Assembly (NCBI RefSeq): GCF_009647605.1
Contig: NZ_WJIF01000002.1
Location: forward strand, 1-64,000
Source of the DNA: Agromyces agglutinans
Lineage (GTDB): Bacteria; Actinomycetota; Actinomycetes; Actinomycetales; Microbacteriaceae
Reading direction: 5' to 3'
Length of the DNA: 64,000 nucleotides
The notes under the pieces are model-generated. The model was not told the origin of the DNA. It did no database searches and was given only the letters and a program-made list of their open reading frames with translations. This document shows, one piece after another, positions 3,665-33,843 of this stretch. Positions within the stretch are counted from its first letter, which is position 1. Every line of letters begins with the position of its first letter. The translations under genes were made by a program, and so were the position numbers.

Positions 3665-4999
3665 ATGGCACAGAACGCCGCTGCCGCCGGGGTGCTGAGG
3701 CTGTCGATCGTGAGCGAGGATCGCCGGCTCGATGTCGGCGTGCCGGCCCATGTCCCCCTCGTCGAGCTCATCCCCGGCTTCGCGCGCAGCATCGGGGTCC
3801 TCGACCCCACGCTCGCGCACACCGGCTACCAGTTGCGGCGTGCCGACGGCACCGTGCTCGACTCGGCCCGAGCGGCCCTGGTGCAGGGCGTCCACGACGG
3901 CGAGCTGCTCACCCTGGTGCGCGGCGGCCTCATCGCCGAGCCCAAGGTCTACGACGACATCGTCGAGGCGGTCATCGACGCCACCGCGTCGCAGCACGGC
4001 GCATGGACGCCGCGCGACAGCTCGCGCACCGCGCTCGCGATCAGCCTCGCCTTCCTCGCGCTGTGCGCCCTCCTGCTGCTGACGTCGGGCGCCGACTCGA
4101 CGCTGGCCGCGGTCATCGCCGGAGCCGGCGCGCTCGTACTGCTCGCGACGGGTGCCGTGCTCGGCCGCCTCGGGCAGTCGGAGGCGAGCCACGCCCTCTC
4201 CCTCGCCGCGGCCGCCTACGGGGGCCTCGCGGGGCTCATCGCGGTCCCGGCCGCCGAACCGTGGGGGTGGCCGCTCGCGGCTGCCGGTCTCGGACTCGGT
4301 CTCGTCGGCGGCGCGGCACTCGCCCTCGCGCCCGACCGACCGGAATTGCAGTTCGCCCCGATCGCGCTGGGCACCGCGCTCGGCCTGACCGGGCTCATCG
4401 CGGCGGTGCTCGGCGGCGATCCGATCGGGCCGTGGGCGATCATGGTGGCCGCCGCCGGCACGCTCTCCAACGGCCTGCCGTGGCTCGCGATGAGCTCGAC
4501 CCGAATCCGGGTCATCTCGCCGCAGAGCGATGCCGAGATCTTCGACGCGCCGCACCCGGTCGACCCCGACGAGGTCACCCGTCGCGCCGTCGCGGGCGCC
4601 CGCACGCTGACGTCGCTCCGCATCGCGCTGGCACTCGCGATGCTCGTCGCCACGCCGCTCGTCGCGGCATCCGGATTGGTGGGCGCGCTCCTCAGCGCGC
4701 TCGCGTTCGTCGGCCTCATGTTCCAGTCGCGGCAGATGCACGCGCGCGGAGGCGTGCTCGCGCTCATGGCGTTCGGAGCCGTCGGGCTCGCCGTGACCGG
4801 GCTGACCGTGGTGTTCAGCCAGCCCGACCTGCGCATCGGGCTGCTGGTCGTCCTGCTCACCACGACGGCGCTGCTCGTGGGACTCACGCTCCTCAGCCCC
4901 CGCGCGCGGCTCCGACTCGCCCGCCTGGCCGACACCGCCGAGCTCGTGGCGCTCGCGCTGCTGCTGCCGCTCGGCGTCCTGACCGCCGGGCTCGCGTAG
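3665..4999 (+). CDS. eccD: type VII secretion integral membrane protein EccD
   Basis: A 444-residue protein with a soluble ubiquitin-like (YukD-type) domain at about residues 10-90, a short linker and then about ten or eleven closely packed hydrophobic helices. This is the EccD architecture: the channel-lining vestibule component of the ESX inner-membrane complex. The start at 3665 is chosen because 'aggaaagg' precedes it and because the ubiquitin-like domain begins right after it; upstream in-frame codons are Arg-rich and not protein-like. It is followed 3 bases later by eccB and then a mycosin gene in one operon. EccC, the ATPase, is not visible here. Confidence 0.9.
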   Translation: MAQNAAAAGVLRLSIVSEDRRLDVGVPAHVPLVELIPGFARSIGVLDPTLAHTGYQLRRADGTVLDSARAALVQGVHDGELLTLVRGGLIAEPKVYDDIVEAVIDATASQHGAWTPRDSSRTALAISLAFLALCALLLLTSGADSTLAAVIAGAGALVLLATGAVLGRLGQSEASHALSLAAAAYGGLAGLIAVPAAEPWGWPLAAAGLGLGLVGGAALALAPDRPELQFAPIALGTALGLTGLIAAVLGGDPIGPWAIMVAAAGTLSNGLPWLAMSSTRIRVISPQSDAEIFDAPHPVDPDEVTRRAVAGARTLTSLRIALALAMLVATPLVAASGLVGALLSALAFVGLMFQSRQMHARGGVLALMAFGAVGLAVTGLTVVFSQPDLRIGLLVVLLTTTALLVGLTLLSPRARLRLARLADTAELVALALLLPLGVLTAGLA

Positions 5000-8831: not shown

Positions 8832-9428
8832 TCACTCCTCGCCGGCCGCCCCCGATCGCGGCTCGAACGCGAGGTCGATGAGCGCCCGCGCGCGGCGCGC
8901 GTCGGTGCGGCGGTCGGCGGCATCCGTTCGCGCGGTGAGGTCGGCGAGCATCGTGACGACCAGCAGCACGTCGGAGGTGTGCACGTGGTCGCCGACGCGG
9001 CCCGAGGCGATCTCGCGGTCCAGGAGCGACTCCGCGAGCCGCGCGAGCCGCTGCGTGAAGTGGGCGACGCGTGCGTCGTGCCGGTTCTCCCAGATCAGGT
9101 CGATCAGCGCGGTCGAGACCGCGGCCTGTTCGATGATCGCGTCGAACAGGTCGTCGAGCGTCGCTTCGGGGCGGTCGACGGATGCCTCGAGCTCGTCGAT
9201 GTTCTCATCGAACACGGCGACGGCGATCGAGAGCCGGTCGGGGAAGTGCCGGTAGAGGCTGCCCTGGCCGACGCCGGCGCGCTTGGCGATGGAGCTGAAC
9301 GGCGCCTGCAGCCCGTCGGCCGCGAACACCTCGCGAGCGGCGGCGATGAGTGCGCGGCGATTGCCCGGACCCGCGCTCGGCCCGCGGTTGGGCTTGCGGG
9401 TGCCGATTCCCTTCCGGCTCTCAGGCAC
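8832..9428 (-). CDS. TetR family transcriptional regulator
   Basis: A 198-residue TetR-type repressor starting at GTG 9428. The N-terminal helix-turn-helix is 'FSSIAKRAGVGQGSLYRHFPDR', about residues 35-57, with the usual YRHF end; the rest is a helical ligand-binding and dimerisation domain. It is divergent from the SDR gene at 9516, and a perfect palindrome lies 16 bases upstream of its start, between the two genes. I infer autoregulation and repression of the SDR gene. The inducing ligand is unknown. Confidence 0.9.
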   Translation of the reverse strand: MPESRKGIGTRKPNRGPSAGPGNRRALIAAAREVFAADGLQAPFSSIAKRAGVGQGSLYRHFPDRLSIAVAVFDENIDELEASVDRPEATLDDLFDAIIEQAAVSTALIDLIWENRHDARVAHFTQRLARLAESLLDREIASGRVGDHVHTSDVLLVVTMLADLTARTDAADRRTDARRARALIDLAFEPRSGAAGEE

Positions 9429-14891: not shown

Positions 14892-16645
14892 TCACCGGAA
14901 CACCCGCCGCATCCACACCGCGAGGCCCTCGAAGACGAGCTGCACGACGAGGATCATCAGCACGATCGAGGTGACCACGTCGTAGTTCGAGCCCTGGCCC
15001 GCGTTCAGCAGGTAGTAGCCGATGCCCCCGCCGCCGACGATGCCGAGCACGGTCGCCGCGCGCAGATTCGTGTCGATCAGGTAGAAGCCGTGGCCGATCA
15101 GCGCCGGCACCCCCTGCGGGAACGTGGCCGAGGCGTACACCTGCAGGCGCGTCGCACCGGTCGCGACCAGGGCGCGTTCGGGTCCGCGGGCGACCTCCTC
15201 GAACGAGTCGGCGATGAGCTTGCCGAGCAGGCCGACGCCGCCGAAGGCGAGCGCGATCATGCCCGCCTGCGAGCCGAGACCGGTGATCACGATCAGCAGG
15301 ATCGCGAGGATCACCTCGGGCACGCCGCGGATGCCGACCAGCAGCAGTCGCGCACCGCTTCGGATGCCGCCGTTCGGGGCGACGTTGCGCGCTGCGAACG
15401 AGCCGATGACGAGCGAGAACACGAAGCTCAGGAGCGTGGCGGCGAGCGCGACGGCGATCGTCTCGGTGAGCGCGGCCGACATGGTGGCCCAGTCGTAGGA
15501 GCCGAACGACGGCGGCCAGAACTGCACGGCGACCGCGGGCACCTTCGCCCAGACGGTCACGAGGTCGGCCCAGTGGATGTCGCACACGGCGACGCCGGCG
15601 ACGATGACCGCGGCAGCCCCCCAGAGCCACGCGACGTTGCGGATGCGCGTGCCGTCCCACGGCCGACGGAGCACGGCTTGCAGGTCAGCGGGCGAGGCGG
15701 CCCCCACCTTCGCCGGGGCGTCGGCCGAGGCATCCGCCACCGTGGAGCGCGTGCGCGGACGCGCGCTCGTGACGCGCCGTACGAATCGATCGCCGAGGCC
15801 GCGCCCGGTGGGCTGCGCGCCCAGCATGGCCCGGCGGATGAGGCTCGACACGATCTCCATGACCACGCAGAGCACGAACATGACGATCGCGATGCCGATG
15901 CCGAGCGAGTAGTTCAATGACTTGAACGCGTGCGACATCTCGAGACCGAGGCCGGCGACGCCCACATAGCCGAGCACGACCGAGTGACGCAGGTTGATGT
16001 CGAAGCGGTGCAGGACCGTCGCGATCCAGCTCGGCAGCACCTGGGGCAGGATGCCGCTCGTGAACTCCTGCAGCTTGGAGCCGCCGGCCGCGCGGACGGC
16101 GAGCCGCGGACCCTCGTCGATCTGCTCGATCGCGTCGGCGAAGAGCTTCGCGATCATGCCGACCGAGTGGATGCCGATGGCGAGGATGCCCGGCAGCGAG
16201 CCGAGCGTGAACATGAGTGCGAATGCCATCGCGAGGACGATGTCGGGAACGGCGCGGGTGAGCACGGTGATGAACCGGCCGATCGCCCGCCAGGCCGGGC
16301 CCGGCGTCGTGTTGCCGGCCGCGAGGTAGGCCACGGGCACCGAGATGACGGCGGCGAGCAGCGTGCCGGTGAGCACGAGGCCGAGCGTGAGGGCCGTGAG
16401 GGAGACGAGCTCGGCCGGCTCGGGGAAGGTGATCGTGCCGACGCGTTCGAAGAACCGCTCGGCGTTGCCCCAGCTGTCGACGATGCCGGCGATCGAGACG
16501 TCGATGTCGACGAGCGCCCACACGGATGCCGCGACGAGGGCGACGATCGTCAGCCCGGCGGCGATGCGCTCGGGCGAGGCACGGCGCCGCGGCGCGCGCG
16601 CGGCGATCGATTCGAGCTTCGGTGCGGCCGCCGGCGCGAGCGCGG

Positions 16646-16649
<4 letters not shown>
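14892..16649 (-). CDS. phnE: phosphonate ABC transporter permease, double-length PhnE
   Basis: 585 residues with two complete permease domains in one chain. The first spans about residues 30-280 and the second about 330-585, each with five or six membrane helices and an EAA-type loop ('AVRAAGGSKLQEFTSGILPQVLP' and 'ALVATGATRLQVYASATFPQGVP'). Most PhnE proteins have one such domain and work as a dimer; here the dimer is fused. It overlaps phnC by 4 bases (ATGA) and sits between the ATPase and the catabolic genes, so uptake and breakdown are co-expressed. Confidence 0.93.
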
Positions 16650-17530
<881 letters not shown>

Positions 17531-17603
17531 GTGCGTGCTTTCGGGGATCGGTGGTGCGGGTCGTGGTGCGGGTCGAAGCGGGTCAGGCCCGCTCAGGGCC
17601 GGG

Positions 17604-18530
17604 TCAGCCCTGGCACTGGGGGGCGTTCGTCTTCGCGCAGATGTCGCGGATCAGGTCGTAGTACTCGTCGTCGACCGGGGAGGTCGCGTAGAACACCGAG
17701 CGGAAGCCCTCGCTGTCGGCACTCTCGACGCCGGCCTCGATGATCTCGTCGATGGTGACCTCGGCCAACGCATCCACCAGGGTCTGCTTCAACTCCTCGG
17801 GGAGCGTGTCGGACATGACGATCGGCGCACCGGGAACCATGGTCTCGGCGATGACCTCGACCTGATCGCTCTTCTCGACCTCGCTGTCCTCGGCGAAGCC
17901 GGCCTCGCACTCGATGCCCTCGCCGACCTTGGTGACGCTGATGTCGTGCTTGCCTGCGAACACGGGAGTGACGTCCGTCTCGGCATCGATGCCCGCCTCG
18001 AGGAGGTTGTAGGAGGGGAAGAGGTAGCCCGAGGTCGACGACGGGTCGACGAAGCACACCTTCTTGCCTTCGAAGTCCTCGAGCGTCGTGATGTCGCTGC
18101 CCTTGGGCACGATCGCCTGAGAGTAGTAGCCCGGCTCCTGGCCCTCCTTCTCGATGATCGATGAGATCGGGGTGATCTTGGCACCGTTGTTGGTGGCGAC
18201 GATGTAGCTGAAACCGGCGAACGAGGCGACATCGACCTTGCCGGCGACGGCGGCCTCGATCAGGGCGGCGTAGTCGGTCGACTCGTGGTACTCGACGGTC
18301 TTGCCGGTGACCTCGGCGAGGTAGTCGGTGAGCCCCTGGTAGTTGGTCTCGGTGTCGACCGAGTCGGGAACGACGCCGAAGACGAGCGTGTCCTGGTCGA
18401 CGGCGAAGCCTGCGGCCGCGTCGGAGGATGCATCGTCGGCGCCGGCGGGGGCGGAACAGGCGGAGAGGGCGAGCGCGAGCGCTCCGGCGCCGAGCAGCGC
18501 GAGCATCGAGTGGGACGTGCGGGTGGTCAT
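17604..18530 (-). CDS. phnD: phosphonate-binding lipoprotein PhnD
   Basis: A 308-residue solute-binding lipoprotein with lipobox 'ALSAC' (Cys25) and a PhnD/SsuA-like fold ('LVFGVVPDSVDTETNYQGL', 'DVASFAGFSYIVA', 'VDPSSTSGYLFPSYNLL'). The Ser-Thr-Ser stretch is where phosphonate-binding proteins hold the phosphonate group. The ATG at 18530 has a 'GGAAGG' ribosome-binding site and a proper signal peptide; longer in-frame starts are not plausible. It is the first gene of the operon, divergent from the GntR regulator. Confidence 0.93.
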   Translation of the reverse strand: MTTRTSHSMLALLGAGALALALSACSAPAGADDASSDAAAGFAVDQDTLVFGVVPDSVDTETNYQGLTDYLAEVTGKTVEYHESTDYAALIEAAVAGKVDVASFAGFSYIVATNNGAKITPISSIIEKEGQEPGYYSQAIVPKGSDITTLEDFEGKKVCFVDPSSTSGYLFPSYNLLEAGIDAETDVTPVFAGKHDISVTKVGEGIECEAGFAEDSEVEKSDQVEVIAETMVPGAPIVMSDTLPEELKQTLVDALAEVTIDEIIEAGVESADSEGFRSVFYATSPVDDEYYDLIRDICAKTNAPQCQG

Positions 18531-18604
18531 GATTGCCTTCCGTGCAGGAATGGTGGGCAGGACACCGGAAGCCTGCCACGGCCGAGGCCGACGTGTATGC
18601 CCAA

Positions 18605-18636
18605 CTTGGGTGAGATTCATCACCTGTTCACTCAAG
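18605..18636. promoter_or_regulatory. inverted repeat in phnD/phnF divergent promoter, possible GntR operator
   Basis: CTTGGGTGA (18605-18613) and TCACTCAAG (18628-18636) are inverted with one mismatch, and a smaller perfect pair GGTGA/TCACC (18609-18624) lies inside. It is in the 173-base gap between phnD and the GntR gene, a natural place for PhnF-type control. Binding is not shown. Confidence 0.45.
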
Positions 18637-18691
18637 GGGGAACGAGGTGAACTCCAGGTGCCGCGGGGTTCTCTGGTGCAACCGCGCAAAG

Positions 18692-18704
18692 TAGTATTCC
18701 TTCG
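18692..18704 (+). promoter_or_regulatory. -10 element of a probable leaderless transcript for the GntR gene
   Basis: TAGTAT at 18692-18697 ends six bases before the GTG start at 18704 and no Shine-Dalgarno is present, so transcription likely begins at or next to the start codon. Confidence 0.5.
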
Positions 18705-19453
18705 TGTCCTCCAGCGTGTACAAGCAGATCGCCGACGACCTCCGCCAGCGCATCACGAGCGGCCAGCTCGCGCCCGGCGACGACGTGCCCACCGAAGGCG
18801 AGCTCGCCGTCCGCTGGAACACCTCGCGCGGTCCCATCCGCAACGCCCTCGCCGAGCTCCGCCAGGAGGGCCTGATCGAGACCACCCGCGGCCGGCCCGC
18901 GCGCGTGGTCGAACGCAAGGCGCACCAGGCGGTCGACGTCTCGATCCCGTTCACCCGGTGGGCCCGCGAACTCGGCGCGAACCCCGGGGCGATCACCCAG
19001 GAGCTCTCCCTGCGCCGCGCCGACGAGGAGCACGCCGAACTCCTGGGTATCGGCACGAGCGACCTCGTCGTGCACGTCGTGCGCCTGCGGCTGCTCGACG
19101 GGCGGCCGACGATGCTCGAACGGCTCACATTCATCGAGGAGGTCGGTCGCAGCCTCTTCGAGCACGACCTCGACGCGGTCTCGATCACCGAGGCCCTCGC
19201 CGAGCGCGGCTTCGGCTACAGCGACGTCGACCACGAGATCGATGCCGTGGCGGCCGACGAGCTCGACAGCCGGCTGCTCGAGGTCGACCCGGGTTCCCCG
19301 ATCCTGCGCCTTCGGCGGATCACCCGGGACGCCCACGGCCGCGTGTTCGAGGCATCCGACGACCGCTATCGCAGCGACATCGTGCGCTTCACCGTCGCCG
19401 CATCGGGACGCGCGACCGCGGGCGGCCACTTCATCCGCCCGATCGGCGGCTGA
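18704..19453 (+). CDS. phnF: GntR/HutC family regulator, PhnF-like
   Basis: A 249-residue GntR regulator. The winged helix is at residues 1-70 ('YKQIADDLRQRITSGQLAPGDDVPTEGELA', 'TSRGPIRNALAELRQEGLIE'), followed by a UTRA effector domain (about 90-240) with the typical alternating strands. Divergent placement next to phnD and the HutC/UTRA class fit PhnF-type control of phosphonate or phosphate use. It would respond to the substrate or a breakdown product. The GTG start has no ribosome-binding site and appears to be leaderless. Confidence 0.87.
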   Translation: MSSSVYKQIADDLRQRITSGQLAPGDDVPTEGELAVRWNTSRGPIRNALAELRQEGLIETTRGRPARVVERKAHQAVDVSIPFTRWARELGANPGAITQELSLRRADEEHAELLGIGTSDLVVHVVRLRLLDGRPTMLERLTFIEEVGRSLFEHDLDAVSITEALAERGFGYSDVDHEIDAVAADELDSRLLEVDPGSPILRLRRITRDAHGRVFEASDDRYRSDIVRFTVAASGRATAGGHFIRPIGG

Positions 19454-21722: not shown

Positions 21723-22085
21723 TCAGCGGGATGCGGTGACGTCGAGCAACTGCGAGAGCTGGCCCAGCGCGCCGGGCACGAGCTTGTAGTACGCCCAGGT
21801 TCCGCGCTTGCTGCGGGTCAGGAACCCGGCCTCCATGAGGATCTTCAGGTGATGCGACACCGTCGGCTGGCTGAGGCCTACAGGTTCGATGAGGTCGCAC
21901 ACGCACGCCTCAGTACCCTCGGATGCCGCGACGATCGACACGAGACGGAGTCTGGTCGGGTCTGCGAGTGCCTTCAGCTTCTTCGCGAGCCCGTCGGCGC
22001 GCTCTGCGTCCATGGCCTCGCTGGTCAGCGGCGTGCAGCAGACGGCGGCATCTGGCTGAATGACGGGCAGCAGCGTGGTGGACAT
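21723..22085 (-). CDS. arsR: ArsR/SmtB family arsenic-responsive repressor
   Basis: A 120-residue winged-helix repressor. The recognition helix 'LSQPTVSHHLKIL' is at residues 71-83. The arsenite-binding pair Cys61-x-Cys63 ('ACVCDLI') lies in the alpha-3 position used by classical ArsR. An additional Cys16-Cys17 ('AAVCCTP') near the N-terminus could provide a third ligand. The start at 22085 is preferred over an upstream ATG at 22151. A TAGAGT -10-like hexamer ends seven bases before it, fitting a leaderless message, and the longer form would run across the promoter of arsO. It should repress itself, the MFS gene and the divergent arsO-arsN1. Confidence 0.9.
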   Translation of the reverse strand: MSTTLLPVIQPDAAVCCTPLTSEAMDAERADGLAKKLKALADPTRLRLVSIVAASEGTEACVCDLIEPVGLSQPTVSHHLKILMEAGFLTRSKRGTWAYYKLVPGALGQLSQLLDVTASR

Positions 22086-22175
22086 GTCGACCACTCTATC
22101 CGAATATTGACAAACATCGATGAAGTAGGCACACTCAGTATCGAAGTTCATCGATGCCTAGGAGGCGCACCCATC
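22086..22175. promoter_or_regulatory. arsR/arsO divergent promoter with paired CATCGATG boxes
   Basis: Two palindromic CATCGATG boxes lie at 22115-22122 and 22149-22156, 34 bases centre to centre. TTGACA at 22107-22112 is a good -35 for arsO, and TAGAGT (22098-22093 on the minus strand) a -10 for arsR. AT-rich palindromes with an ATCGAT core are plausible ArsR sites. 'aggagg' at 22160-22165 is the arsO ribosome-binding site. Confidence 0.55.
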
Positions 22176-24081: not shown

Positions 24082-24097
24082 ATAGACTCTGGTCTAT
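24082..24097. promoter_or_regulatory. ATAGA-N5-GTCTAT operator overlapping the start of the ArsR-ArsC fusion gene
   Basis: ATAGACTCTGGTCTAT has perfect 6-base inverted arms (ATAGAC/GTCTAT) and overlaps the ATG at 24096. The same spaced motif recurs at 25755-25770 before arsC and at 33811-33826 before pstS. There is no Shine-Dalgarno and TAGACT (24083-24088) fits a -10, so the message is probably leaderless and the site would block RNA polymerase. Confidence 0.65.
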
Positions 24098-24983
24098 GGA
24101 TGCTTCGGTGGACTCTGCTCGCGAGTTGCGTCTCGTTGCCGACCCGACGCGGGCGCACATCCTGCGCAGCATCCTCGAGGCCCCTGACGGGCGGGTGCTC
24201 GTGGGGCGTCTCGCTGAGGAACTCGGTTTGCGGCAACCGACGGTGAGTCACCACATGAAGGCGCTTCTCGATGAGGGGTTGGTGCAGCGACACCCCGATG
24301 GGCGCCGCACCTGGTATTCCCTGGCGGACGAGCACGCGGACCGGTTGGCTGAGATCCTTCGCGCCCAGGAGTCGTCCGTCCCGGTCGACCCGGTGCTGGA
24401 GCGCGTGGTGCGAGATCTCAGCGACCGGTACCGCGGGACCTTCAGCCCCGAGACGGTCGAGCGGTACGTGCGCGAGAGCTACGACCTCCTCGCCGACCGA
24501 CCCGCGCCGGGCCGCCGCCTCGCCTCCCTCGCCTCCCAGTTCGCGGCGGATCGGCTCGACGCCCTCGCTCGCGAGGAGCCCGGCGCCGGTTCCGAGATTC
24601 CGGAGGTCCTGTTCGTCTGCGTCCAGAACGCCGGACGGTCGCAGATGGCCTCCGCCATCCTCCGACACCTCGCCGGAGACCGGGTGCACGTACGCACCGC
24701 CGGGTCCGACCCGGCGGGTGAGGTCCGCAGCTCGGTCCTGACGGCGCTGGATGAGATCGGCGTGCCGCTCGCCGGGGAGTACCCGAAACCACTGACCGAC
24801 GAGGTGGTGCGGGCCGCGGATGTCGTGATCACGATGGGCTGCGGCGACGCCTGCCCGATCTACCCCGGCCGCCGCTACCTGGACTGGGACCTCCCCGACC
24901 CGGTCGGCAAGCCCATCACCGAAGTGCGGGAGATCCGCGATGACATCGAGCGCCGCATCCGCGAGCTGCTCGCCACCCTCTGA
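24096..24983 (+). CDS. ArsR-ArsC fusion: HTH regulator, helical linker domain and arsenate reductase
   Basis: A 295-residue protein with three parts. Residues 1-90 are an ArsR winged helix ('LRQPTVSHHMKALL'). Residues 95-160 form a helical domain ('FSPETVERYVRESYDLL', 'LASQFAADRLDALA') shared with two other proteins in this island. Residues 168-295 are a thioredoxin-fold-coupled (low-molecular-weight-phosphatase type) arsenate reductase with C175-x5-R181 and further Cys249 and Cys253 in 'MGCGDACP'. The HTH part has no cysteine, so any arsenic sensing must use the reductase cysteines or another signal. It likely binds the operator over its own start. It leads the operon with the aquaporin gene. 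Confidence 0.9.
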   Translation: MDASVDSARELRLVADPTRAHILRSILEAPDGRVLVGRLAEELGLRQPTVSHHMKALLDEGLVQRHPDGRRTWYSLADEHADRLAEILRAQESSVPVDPVLERVVRDLSDRYRGTFSPETVERYVRESYDLLADRPAPGRRLASLASQFAADRLDALAREEPGAGSEIPEVLFVCVQNAGRSQMASAILRHLAGDRVHVRTAGSDPAGEVRSSVLTALDEIGVPLAGEYPKPLTDEVVRAADVVITMGCGDACPIYPGRRYLDWDLPDPVGKPITEVREIRDDIERRIRELLATL

Positions 24984-24999
24984 TCGATCGACAGGACCG

Positions 25000-25755
25000 A
25001 TGACCGACGAGTCACCCCAGCCCAGCCCTGCCCCGCTCGCCCGCCGCCTGGTCGCCGAGTTCCTCGGAACCGGGCTGCTCGTCGCGATCGTCGTCGGCTC
25101 CGGGATCGCCGCATCACAGCTCTCCCCGGAGGACATCGGCCTGCAGCTGCTGGAGAACAGCCTCGCCACCACGCTCGGCCTGGCTGTCCTGATCGCGGTC
25201 CTCGCCCCGGTATCCGGTGCCCACTTCAACCCCGTCGTGTCGCTCGCGGACTGGTGGCTCGGGCGACGCTCGGGACAGCCCGGCTTCGCTGTGCGCGATG
25301 TCACCCCGTATGCCGGCGCGCAGGTGCTCGGCGCGATCGCGGGCGCCCTGCTCGCGAACGCGATGTTCGATGTGTCCACGGCCATCGCGACCACGGAACG
25401 TGCGACGCCGTCGACGCTGCTCGCTGAAGTCGTCGCGACCGCCGGACTCGTCCTCGTGATCTTCGCGCTCGTGCGCAGCGGCAACACCCGCATCATCCCG
25501 GCAGCGGTCGGTGCGTACATCGGCGCGGCGTACTGGTTCACCAGCTCCACCTCGTTCGCCAATCCAGCCGTGACGATCGGGCGCGTCTTCTCGGACACCT
25601 TCGCCGGCATCTCGCCCACCTCGGTCCTCCCGTTCGTCGGCGCGCAGATCGTCGGCGCGGTCCTTGGCATCGTGCTGGTCGGCTTCCTCTTCCCCGTCCG
25701 AGCCGCAGCATCGGAGCGAAAGGAAAAGAAGGTTCCCGCGGGAGTGGCCAAATGA
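25000..25755 (+). CDS. aquaporin/MIP channel of the arsenic operon (AqpS-like)
   Basis: A 251-residue MIP-family channel with six membrane helices and two pore half-helices carrying the NPA boxes 'HFNPVVS' (NPV variant) and 'FANPAVT'. In some bacteria, an aquaglyceroporin inside an ars operon (AqpS) lets arsenite made by ArsC leave down its gradient. Placement between an ArsR-ArsC fusion and arsC, with no ArsB or Acr3 in the island, supports that role. The first box is NPV rather than NPA, a variation that is tolerated in this family. The start at 25000 is chosen just before the first helix. Confidence 0.9.
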   Translation: MTDESPQPSPAPLARRLVAEFLGTGLLVAIVVGSGIAASQLSPEDIGLQLLENSLATTLGLAVLIAVLAPVSGAHFNPVVSLADWWLGRRSGQPGFAVRDVTPYAGAQVLGAIAGALLANAMFDVSTAIATTERATPSTLLAEVVATAGLVLVIFALVRSGNTRIIPAAVGAYIGAAYWFTSSTSFANPAVTIGRVFSDTFAGISPTSVLPFVGAQIVGAVLGIVLVGFLFPVRAAASERKEKKVPAGVAK

Positions 25756-25773
25756 TAGATCACGGTCTATCAT
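25752..25773. promoter_or_regulatory. palindromic operator and -10 before arsC
   Basis: ATGATAGA and TCTATCAT are perfect 8-base arms around TCACGG. Inside is the ATAGA-N5-GTCTAT motif seen at 24082 and 33811. TATCAT (25768-25773) is a -10 ending six bases before the ATG of arsC, so the operator covers the promoter and the message is likely leaderless. The site also overlaps the aquaporin stop codon, so arsC has its own regulated promoter inside the operon. Confidence 0.7.
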
Positions 25774-25779
25774 TCAGAT

Positions 25780-26199
25780 ATGAGCACTGAGAAGCCCACC
25801 GTCCTGTTCGTCTGCGTCCACAATGCGGGCCGCTCCCAGATGGCCGCCGGCTACCTCCGCGAGCTCGGCGGGGACCGCGTCGAGGTCCGCTCGGCCGGCT
25901 CCGAGCCGAAGGACCAGATCAACCCGGTCGCCGTGGAAGCCATGTCCGAGGAGGGCATCGACATCACCGGCAACACCCCGAAGATCCTCACCGTCGACGC
26001 GGTGAAGGAATCCGACGTCGTCATCACCATGGGCTGCGGCGACGCCTGCCCGATCTTCCCCGGCAAGCGCTACGAGGACTGGGAGCTCGAGGACCCGGCC
26101 GGCCAGGGCATCGAGGCCGTACGCCCGATCCGTGACGAGATCCGCCGCCGCGTGGAAGAACTCATCAGCGAACTCCTGCCCGCGAACGCCACGGTCTGA
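25780..26199 (+). CDS. arsC: arsenate reductase ArsC, single domain
   Basis: A 139-residue arsenate reductase of the low-molecular-weight phosphatase fold. The loop Cys12-x5-Arg18 ('FVCVHNAGRSQ') is at the N-terminus, with Cys86 and Cys90 in 'MGCGDACP' and Asp in 'DPAGQG'. It reduces arsenate to arsenite; the two distal cysteines suggest electron supply by a thioredoxin system, and a thioredoxin reductase gene lies downstream. It is the simplest of four ArsC-domain proteins here and has its own operator-bearing promoter. Confidence 0.93.
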   Translation: MSTEKPTVLFVCVHNAGRSQMAAGYLRELGGDRVEVRSAGSEPKDQINPVAVEAMSEEGIDITGNTPKILTVDAVKESDVVITMGCGDACPIFPGKRYEDWELEDPAGQGIEAVRPIRDEIRRRVEELISELLPANATV

Positions 26200-26223
26200 T
26201 CCGCCCGACGGACGGCCAGGATC

Positions 26224-26874
26224 ATGACGCGCACCGAGCAGCCGCCGCTCCTCACACCCGACTCCGTGCTGCACCGGGCCAGTGAACGCCTCGCCGTCCG
26301 CTTCGACGGGATCTTCAGCGAAGAGACCGTCGAACGGGTGGTCTTCGAGTCGTACACCGCGCTCGCGCGCACCGCGACGGTCAACACCCACCTGCCCAGC
26401 CTCGCCACCCGCTTCGCGCAGGATCGGCTCATGGCGCTGGCGCAGTCCAAGGGCGCGATCGCGAAGCCGGTGCCCGAGGTCCTGTTCGTCTGCGTGCAGA
26501 ACGCCGGCCGATCGCAGATGGCGGCTGCGTACCTCCGGGAACTCGGCGGCGACCGCATCCATGTCCGCTCGGCAGGATCCCAGCCCGCATCCGACCTCGG
26601 CACCTCCGTCGTCCAGGTCATGACCGAAGCCGGCATCGATCTCAGCCACGAATTTCCGAAGCCGCTCACCGATGACGTGGTCCGCGCCGCGGACGTCGTG
26701 ATCACGATGGGCTGCGGCGACGCCTGCCCGGTCTACCCGGGCAAGCAGTACCTCGACTGGCACCTCGACGACCCTGACGTGCTCACCCTCGACGGGGTCC
26801 GCCGGGTCCGTGACCAGATCCGCTCCAACGTCGAACACCTGCTGCACAGCCTGGAGGCCGCACCCCATGAATGA
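26224..26874 (+). CDS. arsC: arsenate reductase with N-terminal helical domain
   Basis: 216 residues. The first 80 form a helical domain ('[17 protein letters not shown]', '[15 protein letters not shown]') homologous to the middle part of the two ArsR-ArsC fusions. Residues 84-216 are ArsC with Cys90-x5-Arg96 and Cys164 and Cys168 in 'MGCGDACP'. A similarly extended, dimeric ArsC is known in Corynebacterium. It lies 24 bases after arsC and overlaps the thioredoxin reductase gene by 8 bases, so reductase and electron supply are coupled. It differs from the fusions only by lacking the DNA-binding part. Confidence 0.9.
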
Positions 26875-27853
26875 GAACCCCATCGAGAACGTCGTCGTCA
26901 TCGGCTCAGGCCCCTCCGGCTACACCGCAGCCGTGTACCTCGCCCGCGCAGGCCTGGAGCCGGTCGTGCTCGCGAGCTCCGTGGAAGCCGGCGGCGCCCT
27001 GGTCACCACGACCGAGGTCGAGAACTACCCGGGCTTCTCCACCGGCATCATGGGCCCCCAACTCATGGACCAGATGCGGATGCAGGCCGAACGCTTCGGC
27101 GCCCGCATCGTCTACGACGACGCGACCGAGGTCGAGCTGACCGGACCGGTCAAGACCATCCGCACCATCAACGGCGTCGAATACCGGGCCCACGCCGTCG
27201 TGCTCGCGATGGGCTCGGCGTACCGCAAGCTCGGCATCGAGGGCGAGGAACGGCTGACCGGTCGTGGTGTCTCCTGGTGCGCCACCTGCGACGGATTCTT
27301 CTTCAAGGGCAAGGACGTCGCCGTCGTCGGCGGCGGCGACTCGGCCCTCGAAGAGGCCATGTTCCTCACTCGGTTCGCCGACTCCGTCACCCTCGTGCAT
27401 CGCCGCGACTCACTGCGCGGGTCCCGCATCATGCAGGAACGCGCCCTCGCCAACCCGAAGATCCGCCCCTACTGGAACGCGGAAGTCATCGCCGTCGAAG
27501 GCGAGGACGGCCTCGAGCGCCTCCGACTCCGCGACACCACCACCGGCGCCGACGCGGCACTCGACGCGACCGGGCTCTTCATCGCGATCGGCCACGACCC
27601 GCGCAGCGAGCTCGTCGCCGGCCAGATCGACCTCGACGACGACGGCTACGTAAGAGTCGCGCACCCGTCGACGCAGACGAACCTCGACGGCGTGTTCGCC
27701 TGCGGCGACCTCGTCGACAAGCGCTACCGACAAGCGATCACCGCAGCAGGAACCGGCTGCGCCGCCGCGCTCGACGCCGAGCACTACCTCGCGGCGCACG
27801 GACTCGCCTCCCCGGTCGAAGAACAAGCAGCCGTCATCCTCGAAACGTCATGA
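26867..27853 (+). CDS. arsT: thioredoxin reductase (ArsT)
   Basis: A 328-residue low-molecular-weight thioredoxin reductase with FAD loop '[11 protein letters not shown]', redox pair Cys138-Ala-Thr-Cys141 ('[10 protein letters not shown]'), NADPH loop '[12 protein letters not shown]' and the C-terminal FAD motif 'GVFACGDL'. It overlaps the extended arsC by 8 bases and closes the operon. As in other actinobacterial ars clusters (arsT), it should regenerate the thioredoxin that reduces ArsC. No thioredoxin gene is in the island, so a housekeeping thioredoxin is presumably used. Confidence 0.92.
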
Positions 27854-27907
27854 ACGATGCACCGATTCATGCTCGCCGAATCTGACTCGCCCCTGTCAGA
27901 CGACCGA

Positions 27908-27934
27908 AAGGACGCTCGTCTAGAATCGGGAGCA
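27908..27934 (+). promoter_or_regulatory. promoter of second arsR with degenerate operator
   Basis: TAGAAT at 27921-27926 is a -10 ending seven bases before the ATG at 27934. A loose copy of the island motif (AAGGA-N5-GTCTAG, 27908-27923) overlaps it. AGACGA and TCGTCT flank the region as a longer inverted repeat. Evidence is modest. Confidence 0.35.
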
Positions 27935-28260
27935 TGGCTGCCGATCCGCTCCGGCTCCCCGCTGGGCGGGAAGAGCCGGCCGCGCTGGACCGGGAAGCTG
28001 CCGAATCCCTCGCGCGGACGCTTCGAGCGATCGCGGACCCGACGCGGCTGCAACTGCTCAGCCTCATTCGTCGGAGCGTCAACGCGGAATCGACCGTCGG
28101 CGAGCTTGCCGACCATCTCCGACTCACCCAGCCGACCGTCAGCCACCACCTGCGGATCATGGTCGACGACGGTCTGCTCGTCCGAGAGCAGCGAGGCCGC
28201 CACGCCTGGTTCTCCGTGGCATCCGACCGCGCGTCGGAGATCGACGACCTGCTCCGGTGA
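27934..28260 (+). CDS. ArsR family regulator without cysteines
   Basis: A 108-residue winged-helix ArsR/SmtB protein with recognition helix 'LTQPTVSHHLRIM'. It has no cysteine at all, so it cannot bind arsenite by thiols as the first ArsR can. It is directly followed, three bases after its stop, by the second ArsR-ArsC fusion gene, with which it may form heterodimers or share operators. It could respond to a different signal or act as a constitutive DNA-binding partner. Confidence 0.85.
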   Translation: MAADPLRLPAGREEPAALDREAAESLARTLRAIADPTRLQLLSLIRRSVNAESTVGELADHLRLTQPTVSHHLRIMVDDGLLVREQRGRHAWFSVASDRASEIDDLLR

Positions 28261-28263
28261 ACG

Positions 28264-29256
28264 ATGAGCGGGCCCGGCGCAACTGCGCCGTTGGATCCCG
28301 TATCAGCGCAGAGCCGCGCCGAGCAGATCGGAGTGCTCGCCGATCCGATTCGACTCAGGCTGATGAGCGTACTCGCGACTGATCCAGACCGGGCGTGGAG
28401 CCCGGCCGAATTGGGCGAGCAGCTCGAGATCGACGCACCGAGCGTGATCGAGCACCTGGAGCGCCTTGAGGCAGTGGGCCTACTCGTGCCGAGACCTGGC
28501 CCGAGGTCACCCCAGTTGATCCCGTCCGCCGAGGCGTGGGTTCGCTTCGGCCGCCTCCTCGCCGGGAAGCCGATCTACGCGCCCGTGGAGCCGGCCGATG
28601 AGCGGGCCAGCGGTGCGGTCGCGCTGCCCTCGCAGATCCAGCGCATTGCGGATCGGCTCGCGTACCGGTTCAGCGCGCATTTCTCACGGGAGACCGTCGA
28701 ACGGTACGTCGCCGAGAGCTATCAGCTGCTCCTTCGGCGGGCGAAGACCACGCGTCATCTCCCCTCTTTGACGAGCCGGTTCGCCAGTGACCGCCTGGGC
28801 GCACTTGCGGCTGCACAGGGCTTCGATCTCACCGGCGTGCCCGAGGTCCTGTTCGTGTGCGTGCAGAACTCCGGCCGTTCCCAGATGGCGGCCGGCCTGC
28901 TCCGTAGTCTCGCCGGACCGCACGTGCACGTGCGGACGGCGGGGTCGCAACCGGCCGACACGATCGACCCGCTCGTCGTGCAGGCCCTGGACGAGATCGG
29001 TGTGCCGACCGTTGCCGAGTTCCCCAAGCCGTTGACGGACGAGGTCGTGCAGGCCGCCGATGTGGTGGTCACCATGGGCTGCGGAGACGCCTGCCCGGTA
29101 TATCCGGGGCGACGCTACATGGACTGGAAGATCCGCGATCCGCTCGGTCATCCGCTCGAAGAGGTCCGCCGGATCCGCGATGAGATCAGATCGCACGTGG
29201 ATGAGCTCATGGCGAGCCTGGGCCTGCCTGCAGATCAGACCTCGGCGATCCGGTAG
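28264..29256 (+). CDS. second ArsR-ArsC fusion protein
   Basis: 330 residues in the same three-part order as the gene at 24096. A winged helix covers residues 15-100 ('IGVLADPIRLRLMSVL', 'IDAPSVIEHLERLEAVGLL'), a helical domain 125-185 ('FSRETVERYVAESYQLL') and ArsC 192-325, with Cys199-x5-Arg205 ('CVQNSGR') and Cys273 and Cys277. The recognition helix differs strongly from the first fusion, so it probably binds another site or has lost binding. There is again no cysteine in the HTH part. Its 3' end overlaps the convergent phosphate-operon regulator gene by 22 bases. Confidence 0.88.
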   Translation: MSGPGATAPLDPVSAQSRAEQIGVLADPIRLRLMSVLATDPDRAWSPAELGEQLEIDAPSVIEHLERLEAVGLLVPRPGPRSPQLIPSAEAWVRFGRLLAGKPIYAPVEPADERASGAVALPSQIQRIADRLAYRFSAHFSRETVERYVAESYQLLLRRAKTTRHLPSLTSRFASDRLGALAAAQGFDLTGVPEVLFVCVQNSGRSQMAAGLLRSLAGPHVHVRTAGSQPADTIDPLVVQALDEIGVPTVAEFPKPLTDEVVQAADVVVTMGCGDACPVYPGRRYMDWKIRDPLGHPLEEVRRIRDEIRSHVDELMASLGLPADQTSAIR

Positions 29257-30011
29257 CCGATACCGCGGAGCGTCTCGAGGATGCGCCCGGAGCCGACCGC
29301 GGTGGCTTCGAGCTTCTTGCGCACCCGGGTCACCAGGGCGCGGGTGGCCGGGACACTGCCGTCATCGTAGGTGGAGAGGGCCCGAGTGAGTTCTTCAACG
29401 CTGACGACCCGAGGCGTGGCGAGCATCAGGCATTGCACGAGCAGGAACTCACGTGGGGTCAGCGGTACCGTGCGCCCATCGATCGTGACCCTGAACGCCT
29501 GGGGTTCGAGCAACAGTGTTCCGATCGTGAGCGGCCGGGAATGCGAGTCGATGCGCACCCCGCATGATCGCACCGCCGAGATGAGCTGATCCGGACGGCA
29601 CGGCAGCGCGAGGATCGACCGGGCGCCCCTCGCGATCGCCTGGTACGCGAGGTCGGCTGCACCGTCGTGGTTGGCCACGCCGACGATGACCGGTACCTCG
29701 CTCCACGCCGCCATCGCTTCGATGAAGCTCATGAAGTCCACGTTCACCATATCGGTGGGCGCGACGATCGCGGCAGGCTCCTCCTCCCGCACCGCCAGCA
29801 GCGCACCGATGGCATCGCTGTACCCGTGGATCTCCAAGCCGTGGGTCTCGACCGACTCGGCGGGATACCCGGGCGCCGATCTCGACTCGATGAACAACAC
29901 TCGTGCCGGCCACTTCGGGGCGCCGACCGCGATTCGGGATGCGCCCTGATGCGCGTAGGCGAGCTCGCTCGGGACCGCCGCGACGCCCGACCGGACGCCC
30001 ACCGTGCTCAT
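29235..30011 (-). CDS. winged-helix response-regulator-like protein with degenerate receiver, last gene of pst operon
   Basis: 258 residues. The C-terminal 100 are an OmpR/PhoB winged helix ('[31 protein letters not shown]', 'TRVRKKLEA', 'LRGIGYRI'). The N-terminal ~120 have a receiver-like fold ('VLFIESR', '[11 protein letters not shown]', '[17 protein letters not shown]'). The phosphoacceptor position reads Pro-Thr-Asp and the usual KP switch lysine is Leu, so phosphorylation is doubtful. The ATG overlaps the pstB stop (ATGA). It may be an atypical PhoP-like regulator of the operon or act like PhoU, which is absent here; this is inference. Confidence 0.82.
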
Positions 30012-33742: not shown

Positions 33743-33810
33743 GGTGATCCTTCCGGGAGAGGATTTCGCCTCGTGGATGAAATGTGATGGCCGGTATCCG
33801 GCTCAACACA

Positions 33811-33826
33811 TAGAAGATCGTCTAAA
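33811..33826. promoter_or_regulatory. ATAGA-N5-GTCTA inverted repeat in pstS promoter
   Basis: ATAGAAGATCGTCTAA has the same spacing and ten fixed bases as the two sites in the arsenic island, with TAGA/TCTA as its symmetric core. It adjoins and overlaps the PHO box by five bases and lies where the -10 of pstS is expected. A role as an arsenic-responsive operator is inference. Confidence 0.5.
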
Positions 33827-33843
33827 TGAACGCAGGGTGAACG
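33822..33843 (-). promoter_or_regulatory. PHO box (PhoP-type direct repeats) upstream of pstS
   Basis: On the minus strand GTTCACCCTGC is followed directly by GTTCATTTAGA. These are two 11-base direct repeats matching the actinobacterial PhoP consensus (GTTCACC/GTTCATT with 11-base period). They lie about 80-100 bases upstream of the pstS start codon. This indicates phosphate-starvation activation by a PhoP encoded elsewhere. Confidence 0.75.

Follow-up and report, generated by a model that had tools for sequence, protein, structure and literature searches.

Cysteine-free ArsR-ArsC fusions in Agromyces agglutinans as putative repressors with a reductase sensor and a candidate split regulator of a phosphate-uptake promoter

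Fusions of the repressor ArsR to the arsenate reductase ArsC have already been reported, according to passages in PMC6514093 and PMC6205960 and, for the arsRC of L. ferriphilum, in PMC4443643. For the Paracoccus ArsRC (Chen et al. 2022, Environ Microbiol, doi 10.1111/1462-2920.15957, as cited in PMC9479143), the citing passage states that arsenate sensing was improved by channelling of As(III), and according to that description the ArsR part binds the As(III) that ArsC makes. In the actinobacteria, the similarity-network clusters C4 and C7 are ArsR-ArsC fusions according to passages in PMC6514093, forming two separate fusion groups across genera, as in our tree, and a figure legend in that paper names ArsR-ArsC2 of Microbacterium sp. 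A33. The passages on C4 and C7 make no mention of HTH cysteines, an operator, a pseudo-HTH or a link to pst. A link to phosphate uptake is known from Agrobacterium tumefaciens 5A, where ArsR1 controls pstS1/phoB1 (passages in PMC7965956, PMC3834237). Here, we describe a 64,000-nucleotide stretch of Agromyces agglutinans (contig NZ_WJIF01000002.1, positions 1 to 64,000, hereafter the window), whose arsenic (ars) cluster encodes two ArsR-ArsC fusions, P0001 and P0002, and a stand-alone ArsR, ArsRx, followed by a pst operon.

Like the Paracoccus protein, P0001 and P0002 hold ArsR and ArsC in one chain; unlike the one described in that source, their ArsR part is cysteine-free. They share with A33 ArsR-ArsC2, as the legend presents it, the setting of an actinobacterial fusion in an ars cluster. 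The locus also resembles that of A. tumefaciens 5A in having an ArsR on a pst operon in an arsenic island (repression is what we propose here), whereas ArsR1, in the passages cited, is a stand-alone protein that responds to As(III) and is reportedly insensitive to phosphate, and in the present locus a cysteine-free ArsR accompanies a pseudo-ArsR-ArsC, and a PHO-like box directly adjoins the operator. ArsR-ArsC fusions and ArsR control of pst are thus already known; what is new is a cysteine-free lineage with a start-codon operator, the pairing of a pseudo-ArsR with ArsRx, and a PHO/operator promoter. A cysteine-free ArsR-ArsC sensor, a start-codon operator, pseudo-ArsR pairing and a composite PHO-box/ArsR promoter were not found in the open-licence papers searched.

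We put at roughly 55% the reading as a whole, in which P0001 is a repressor with a reductase sensor, and P0002 and ArsRx form a split regulator of a two-input pst promoter. P0001 would bind, as a dimeric ArsR-type repressor, to ATAGA-N6-TCTAT over its own promoter and start codon and before arsC, with its fused thioredoxin-type arsenate reductase as the sensor. The trigger may be engagement of arsenate, arsenic bound by C175, C249 and C253, or a disulfide among them, and the signal would pass via the three-helix bundle to the helix-turn-helix (HTH) dimer, lifting repression. P0002 would be the split form, in which an HTH that does not read DNA keeps the ArsR fold and the last helix and pairs with ArsRx; ArsRx would read the operator while the P0002 reductase senses, and the pair would control the adjacent pst operon, where a PHO box (activation in phosphate starvation) abuts the operator (derepression by arsenic). 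We infer that the catalytic cysteines sense arsenic and act on DNA binding, and the species sensed is part of the same inference. A bolder version, put forward tentatively and with less than even confidence, has arsenate turnover (a thiol-arsenate adduct or a C249-C253 disulfide) release the cysteine-free repressor, and a split pseudo-ArsR-reductase/ArsR dimer gate the phosphate-uptake promoter, integrating starvation and arsenate. Fusion anatomy, cysteine content, operator conservation and position, gene pairing, and PHO-box/operator geometry were computed here, and the elements concerned are as follows:

24082..24097, plus strand: operator, exact ATAGA-N6-TCTAT, ATAGACTCTGGTCTAT; its final two bases form the AT of the P0001 ATG, a leaderless-type start
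24096..24983, plus strand: P0001, type A fusion of ArsR HTH, three-helix bundle and ArsC; no HTH cysteine, QPTVSHH intact
24606..24971, plus strand: ArsC (LMWPc) part of P0001 (Pfam, residues 171-292) with C175, C249 and C253; proposed sensor
25755..25770, plus strand: second exact operator, ATAGATCACGGTCTAT, upstream of arsC (pattern search)
27934..28260, plus strand: ArsRx, stand-alone ArsR with zero cysteines and QPTVSHH intact; proposed DNA-reading partner of P0002
28264..29256, plus strand: P0002, type C fusion of a degenerate (pseudo) ArsR HTH, three-helix bundle and ArsC with C199, C273 and C277
30008..33742, minus strand: pst operon, pstS (33742-32774) first, then pstC, pstA and pstB (tblastn with annotated Cellulosimicrobium Pst proteins)
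33810..33825, minus strand: operator with one mismatch, TTAGACGATCTTCTAT, upstream of pstS (pattern search)
33827..33842, minus strand: direct repeat resembling a PHO box, GTTCACCCTGCGTTCA; its start precedes that of the operator by 17 nt (pattern search)

An earlier sequence-only reading of the window had described both fusions as an ArsR part, a helical domain and an ArsC, with no cysteine in either HTH part and the active-site set of the reductase kept, and this description holds. Both open reading frames exist, and P0001 has HTH_5 and HTH_20 followed by PF21234 (three-helix N-terminal domain) and PF01451 (LMWPc); in P0002, HTH_20 is above its cut-off, HTH_5 reaches 20.0 bits against a cut-off of 22, and PF21234 and PF01451 are present. 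NF033788 and HTH_5 are above their cut-offs for the HTH of P0001 and of ArsRx, while NF033788 reaches 29.5 against a cut-off of 55 for P0002. The only cysteines are C175, C249 and C253 in P0001 and C199, C273 and C277 in P0002, all in the reductase, and none of P0001, P0002 and ArsRx has cysteines that could form an As(III) site within or beside the HTH. The P-loop CxxNxGRS, the CGDxCP pair and the DP motif are invariant in the 76-row alignment of P0001 and the 38-row alignment of P0002; the catalytic three cysteines are invariant in the former, where 73 of the 76 aligned full-length proteins have exactly three cysteines and three have four. The helical domain is not peculiar to these regulators and is the same as the N-terminal domain of Cg_ArsC1' of Corynebacterium glutamicum (PDB 3t38), which is also the best solved structural match (template modelling (TM) score 0.89) of the AlphaFold single-chain model of P0001 (predicted local distance difference test (pLDDT) 89.3, predicted TM score (pTM) 0.83). 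Cg_ArsC1', thioredoxin-dependent according to the structure title, is like P0001 in joining a three-helix bundle to a low-molecular-weight ArsC and differs from P0001 and P0002 in having no HTH.

The fusion set compared contained 111 distinct type A (P0001-like), 24 type B and 14 type C (P0002-like) proteins, typed by regular expressions with further type C proteins from tblastn. From the ADPTR motif at the HTH start to the P-loop, 106 of the 111 type A fusions are cysteine-free; L037 and L169 have one HTH cysteine each, leaving 109 with a cysteine-free HTH, and L045, L103 and L203 have one cysteine in the linker or helical part. Going by these sequences, the cysteine-free HTH part is a family trait of P0001-type fusions, and a chance lack of cysteines was rejected on the count of 106. 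The same sequences bear on product channelling, in which the fused ArsC makes As(III) and passes it to a binding site for As(III) on the ArsR side; the proposal has a precedent in the Paracoccus ArsRC, as summarised in PMC9479143, but with no HTH cysteine in P0001, P0002 or the 109 type A proteins, the As(III) would need the thiols of another protein. Channelling within the chain was rejected in this sequence test for want of HTH thiols, and we regard this explanation as extremely improbable.

The operator test covered the 108 type A genes for which 200 bp of DNA upstream were available, three of the 111 having been dropped as truncated. The palindrome ATAGA-N6-TCTAT was found at no more than one mismatch upstream of 98 genes (exact in 88), with the start ATG within the right half-site in 97, and the half-sites are constant while the spacer bases vary; the reversed pattern occurred in none of the 108 upstream stretches. 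In the 3.9-Mb genome, the exact operator lies only at 24082 and 25755, and one-mismatch sites lie at 33810 (pstS), at C20:98997 (before a second arsC) and at C12:388527-388542 (on the contig of the window); the reversed control matched one place. In the 68 of the 80 named loci that are longer than 12 kb, 62 of 71 arsC genes have the operator in front of them, as against none of the 39 genes for the flavin adenine dinucleotide (FAD) enzyme, 35 of which have a divergent cysteine-containing ArsR (Cys-ArsR) within 300 bp. Since the operator is found at arsC and not at the FAD-enzyme genes, and also in loci without another ArsR match, it most likely belongs to the cysteine-free fusion, which, judged from this distribution, controls itself and arsC.

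It could instead be argued that the P0001 HTH is a vestige and that control of the entire cluster lies with the Cys-ArsR at 22151, as a Cys-ArsR match is present in 37 of the 68 named loci (with CxC in all 37). Against this stand the missing operator at the FAD-enzyme genes, most of them facing a Cys-ArsR, the operators in loci without another ArsR match (31 of the 68 gave no match to two reference ArsRs), and a mean conservation of 0.84 in the type A recognition helix (12 positions, 111 sequences; QPTVSHH intact in P0001), and we consider the vestige very unlikely. Because P0001-type proteins have no cysteine outside the reductase, any arsenic-sensing thiol of the protein would be catalytic; P0001 is therefore very probably, by its sequence features, an autoregulatory repressor with the reductase as its only candidate thiol sensor, autorepression itself being presumed. 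Moreover, a separate ArsC is present in 63 of the 68 loci, so that the enzyme activity of the fused reductase seems superfluous, a point in favour of its being a sensor.

The earlier proposal that the catalytic cysteines could be the sensor in both fusions gains indirect support for P0001-type proteins, which keep the DNA-reading helix and the operator, and does not carry over as such to P0002, because the two fusions are not equivalent. The recognition helix of P0002 reads DAPSVIEHL instead of QPTVSHH; it is lost in all 14 type C proteins, with a conservation of 0.46 versus 0.79 in ArsRx, suggesting that P0002 probably no longer reads its operator itself. The last ArsR helix, which is expected at the ArsR dimer interface, is conserved at 0.69 in type C, 0.64 in ArsRx and 0.48 in type A, and in the AlphaFold single-chain model of P0002 (pLDDT 85.1, pTM 0.64) the HTH part is still a winged helix. 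A short, cysteine-free ArsRx with an intact [QS]PT[VI][ST]HH helix lies directly upstream of type C in 14 of 14 loci, its stop falling 3 nt before the P0002 start in the window. ArsRx, a third cysteine-free ArsR of the cluster, had been overlooked by the sequence-only reading, which had named the protein at 26224 (P0003) as a possible partner. That protein does have the same helical domain and no HTH (PF21234 and PF01451 only), but the three-helix domain is standard, P0003 falls in a different tree group from P0001 and P0002, and the conserved neighbour of P0002 is ArsRx; P0003 was rejected as a special partner and is an ordinary Cg_ArsC1'-type reductase. The eroded recognition helix, the kept last helix and the pairing with ArsRx therefore point to a heterodimer in which ArsRx would read the DNA and P0002 would carry the reductase.

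Two alternatives meet at this pairing. P0002 may be a mere reductase with a dying ArsR domain, while ArsRx homodimers (or P0001) control pst; the lost recognition helix fits this, as does Agromyces bauzanensis L141, which has the pst promoter and no type C in view, but the pseudo-domain is kept in 14 distinct proteins, the most distant about 44% identical to P0002, its last helix is more strongly conserved than that of type A, its HTH still models as a winged helix, and ArsRx pairing is complete, so that we find this somewhat unlikely. Alternatively, the ArsR part itself may sense without cysteines, the HTH dimer binding an oxyanion (arsenate or phosphate) and ArsC being a tethered enzyme only. 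ArsRx, as a stand-alone cysteine-free ArsR, speaks in its favour, as does the Thermus ArsR-family repressor TtSmtB, which reportedly releases DNA better with arsenate than with arsenite (passages in PMC5658604) and which, unlike P0001, has cysteines and is not described there as fused to a reductase. This explanation, which we judge unlikely, leaves unaccounted for the full triad and P-loop of a fused ArsC that mostly has a separate ArsC nearby, and the pairing of ArsRx with a pseudo-ArsR-ArsC.

As to the proposed target of the ArsRx-P0002 pair, pstS is included in 12 of the 14 type C loci, whereas L135 and L136, both from Agromyces, stop short of it. Together with L141 (type A), the 12 give 13 pst promoters, and in all 13 the start of a PHO-box-like repeat, GTTCA-N6-GTTCA (at most two mismatches), precedes the operator by exactly 17 nt; such a repeat was found in only three of 108 type A promoters. 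Actinobacterial PHO boxes are described in a passage of PMC7866108 as 11-nt direct repeats bound by PhoP, and PhoP would presumably bind here as well. A second operator-like site (at most two mismatches) lies 55-56 nt upstream in 10 of the 13; L141 has no second site, and that of L114 lies 27 nt downstream. The composite PHO/operator site (at most two mismatches) occurs once in the genome of A. agglutinans, at pstS, and in six genomes out of the 396 searched in the order, against 0 for the control, a search that measures specificity and is not independent proof, as the pattern was derived from these same loci and only part of the fusions in these genomes were typed. All six are among the seven genomes where type C had been found earlier, and the seventh, G548, has three mismatches. 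From this arrangement, we read the pst promoter as a two-input phosphate promoter that would be under a split ArsR/pseudo-ArsR-ArsC regulator. Exact operators were also seen between fusC and the pst operon at L039:9311, adjoining a small gene annotated 'hypothetical protein' (8888-9301, minus strand), and at L116:9278; they mark another possible target.

Besides the origin of the composite pattern, several observations weigh against the proposed model. The PHO/operator promoter of L141 lies beside a type A fusion, which alone may serve; the pst promoter of the window has one operator site and not the 55-56-nt pair; and, in the named loci, just 2 of 6 PstS-like genes have the operator, as do 13 of 39 MIP genes. 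In the window, the promoter of ArsRx itself lacks the operator, and so, at up to one mismatch, do 10 of the 108 type A genes, of which L153 and L130 count as operator-less only because the search stretch ended inside the operator. Random 200-bp stretches of the same loci match it in 90 of 2160 cases, real sites included. Type B loci carry similar sites, so cross-binding is possible: the asymmetric ATAGA-N6-TCGAT occurs at L039:3636 (directly before the thioredoxin reductase gene), L052:3971, L055:6115, L059:4561, L061:3824 and L065:3973, and L056:5249 has the right half TCAAT. One extra cysteine is found in 3 of the 14 type C proteins (L086, L112, L119), the other 11 holding catalytic cysteines only, and a CVCDL-coding pattern is present somewhere in 7 of 15 type A/C genomes.

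If the model is true, a well-known enzyme doubles as an arsenate sensor, and the cell measures arsenate itself, not only arsenite, by its reductase thiols. A transporter promoter needing both signals would suggest a route for phosphate entry under arsenate stress, and the ArsRx/pseudo-ArsR-ArsC pairing would be a testable case of a DNA-binding domain retained past the loss of DNA reading.

The tree of the three-helix and ArsC part was built from 72 rows, comprising 29 of the 111 type A proteins (a random 28 plus P0001), 14 of the 24 type B, the 14 type C and 15 HTH-less reductases. A 100/99 branch separates types A and C from type B and the HTH-less reductases, with type B forming one group at 100/100. 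This placement makes at least two separate fusions of ArsR to ArsC probable, and P0001 and P0002 belong, by sequence, to the lineage without arsenite cysteines. Type B is defined by the CxCD arsenite motif, so that its presence in all type B proteins is by definition, and independent support comes from the tree and from linkage to ACR3, which adjoins type B fusions in 7 of 7 annotated loci and occurs in none of the 68 named loci. ArsR-ArsC2 of strain A33, said to have been given a repressor role by Achour-Rokbani et al. in 2010, we expect to be type B from its gene order (ACR3/thioredoxin operon, CVCDL). Of the 396 genomes of the order, 164 had matches in the search for P0002 relatives, with 30 loci typed and 60 further ones among the matches listed. 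These 60 comprised 4 type A, 41 type B and 15 unparsed matches, of which 12 show CVCD on reading, L247 is B-like, and L271 and L281 are of undecided type; type C was absent among the 58 typed of these 60. In the type-B-like fusion L247 (G346), the CVCDL position reads SANDI, and the arsenite cysteines have seemingly been lost in the other lineage too. The locus L178 (JASDDH010000006.1), titled Planococcus sp., groups with Microbacterium type A in the tree and is probably mislabelled or contaminated.

The remaining features of the cluster and its surroundings are:

21723..22151, minus strand: canonical ArsR bearing cysteines (CC and CVCDL) and transcribed divergently from the FAD enzyme
25000..25755, plus strand: MIP/aquaporin-family channel adjoining P0001 (PF00230)
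25780..26199, plus strand: separate ArsC without extra domains (PF01451 only)
26224..26874, plus strand: P0003, three-helix bundle and ArsC without HTH, Cg_ArsC1' architecture (PF21234 and PF01451)
26867..27853, plus strand: thioredoxin reductase (TIGR01292 above its cut-off)
29235..30011, minus strand: regulator of the winged-helix type, located between P0002 and the pst operon; the counterpart on the Cellulosimicrobium plasmid is annotated 'winged helix family transcriptional regulator'

On the plus strand, the order is FAD enzyme, ArsN1-like acetyltransferase (match below the family cut-off), P0001, MIP channel, ArsC, P0003, thioredoxin reductase, ArsRx and P0002, and the nearest named relatives of both P0001 and P0002 are from Agromyces. 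Between the Cys-ArsR and the FAD enzyme, there are only operator-like sites with two mismatches, at 22106 and 22140. The same genome has a second ars cluster, L082 (C20:94000-106000), with Cys-ArsR, FAD enzyme and ArsC, whose arsC is preceded by a hybrid site, ATCGA-N6-TCTAT, at 4998. Finally, open reading frames at 14892-19453, near the ars cluster, resemble a phosphonate/phosphite-type ATP-binding cassette transporter, with a GntR-type regulator at 18704.

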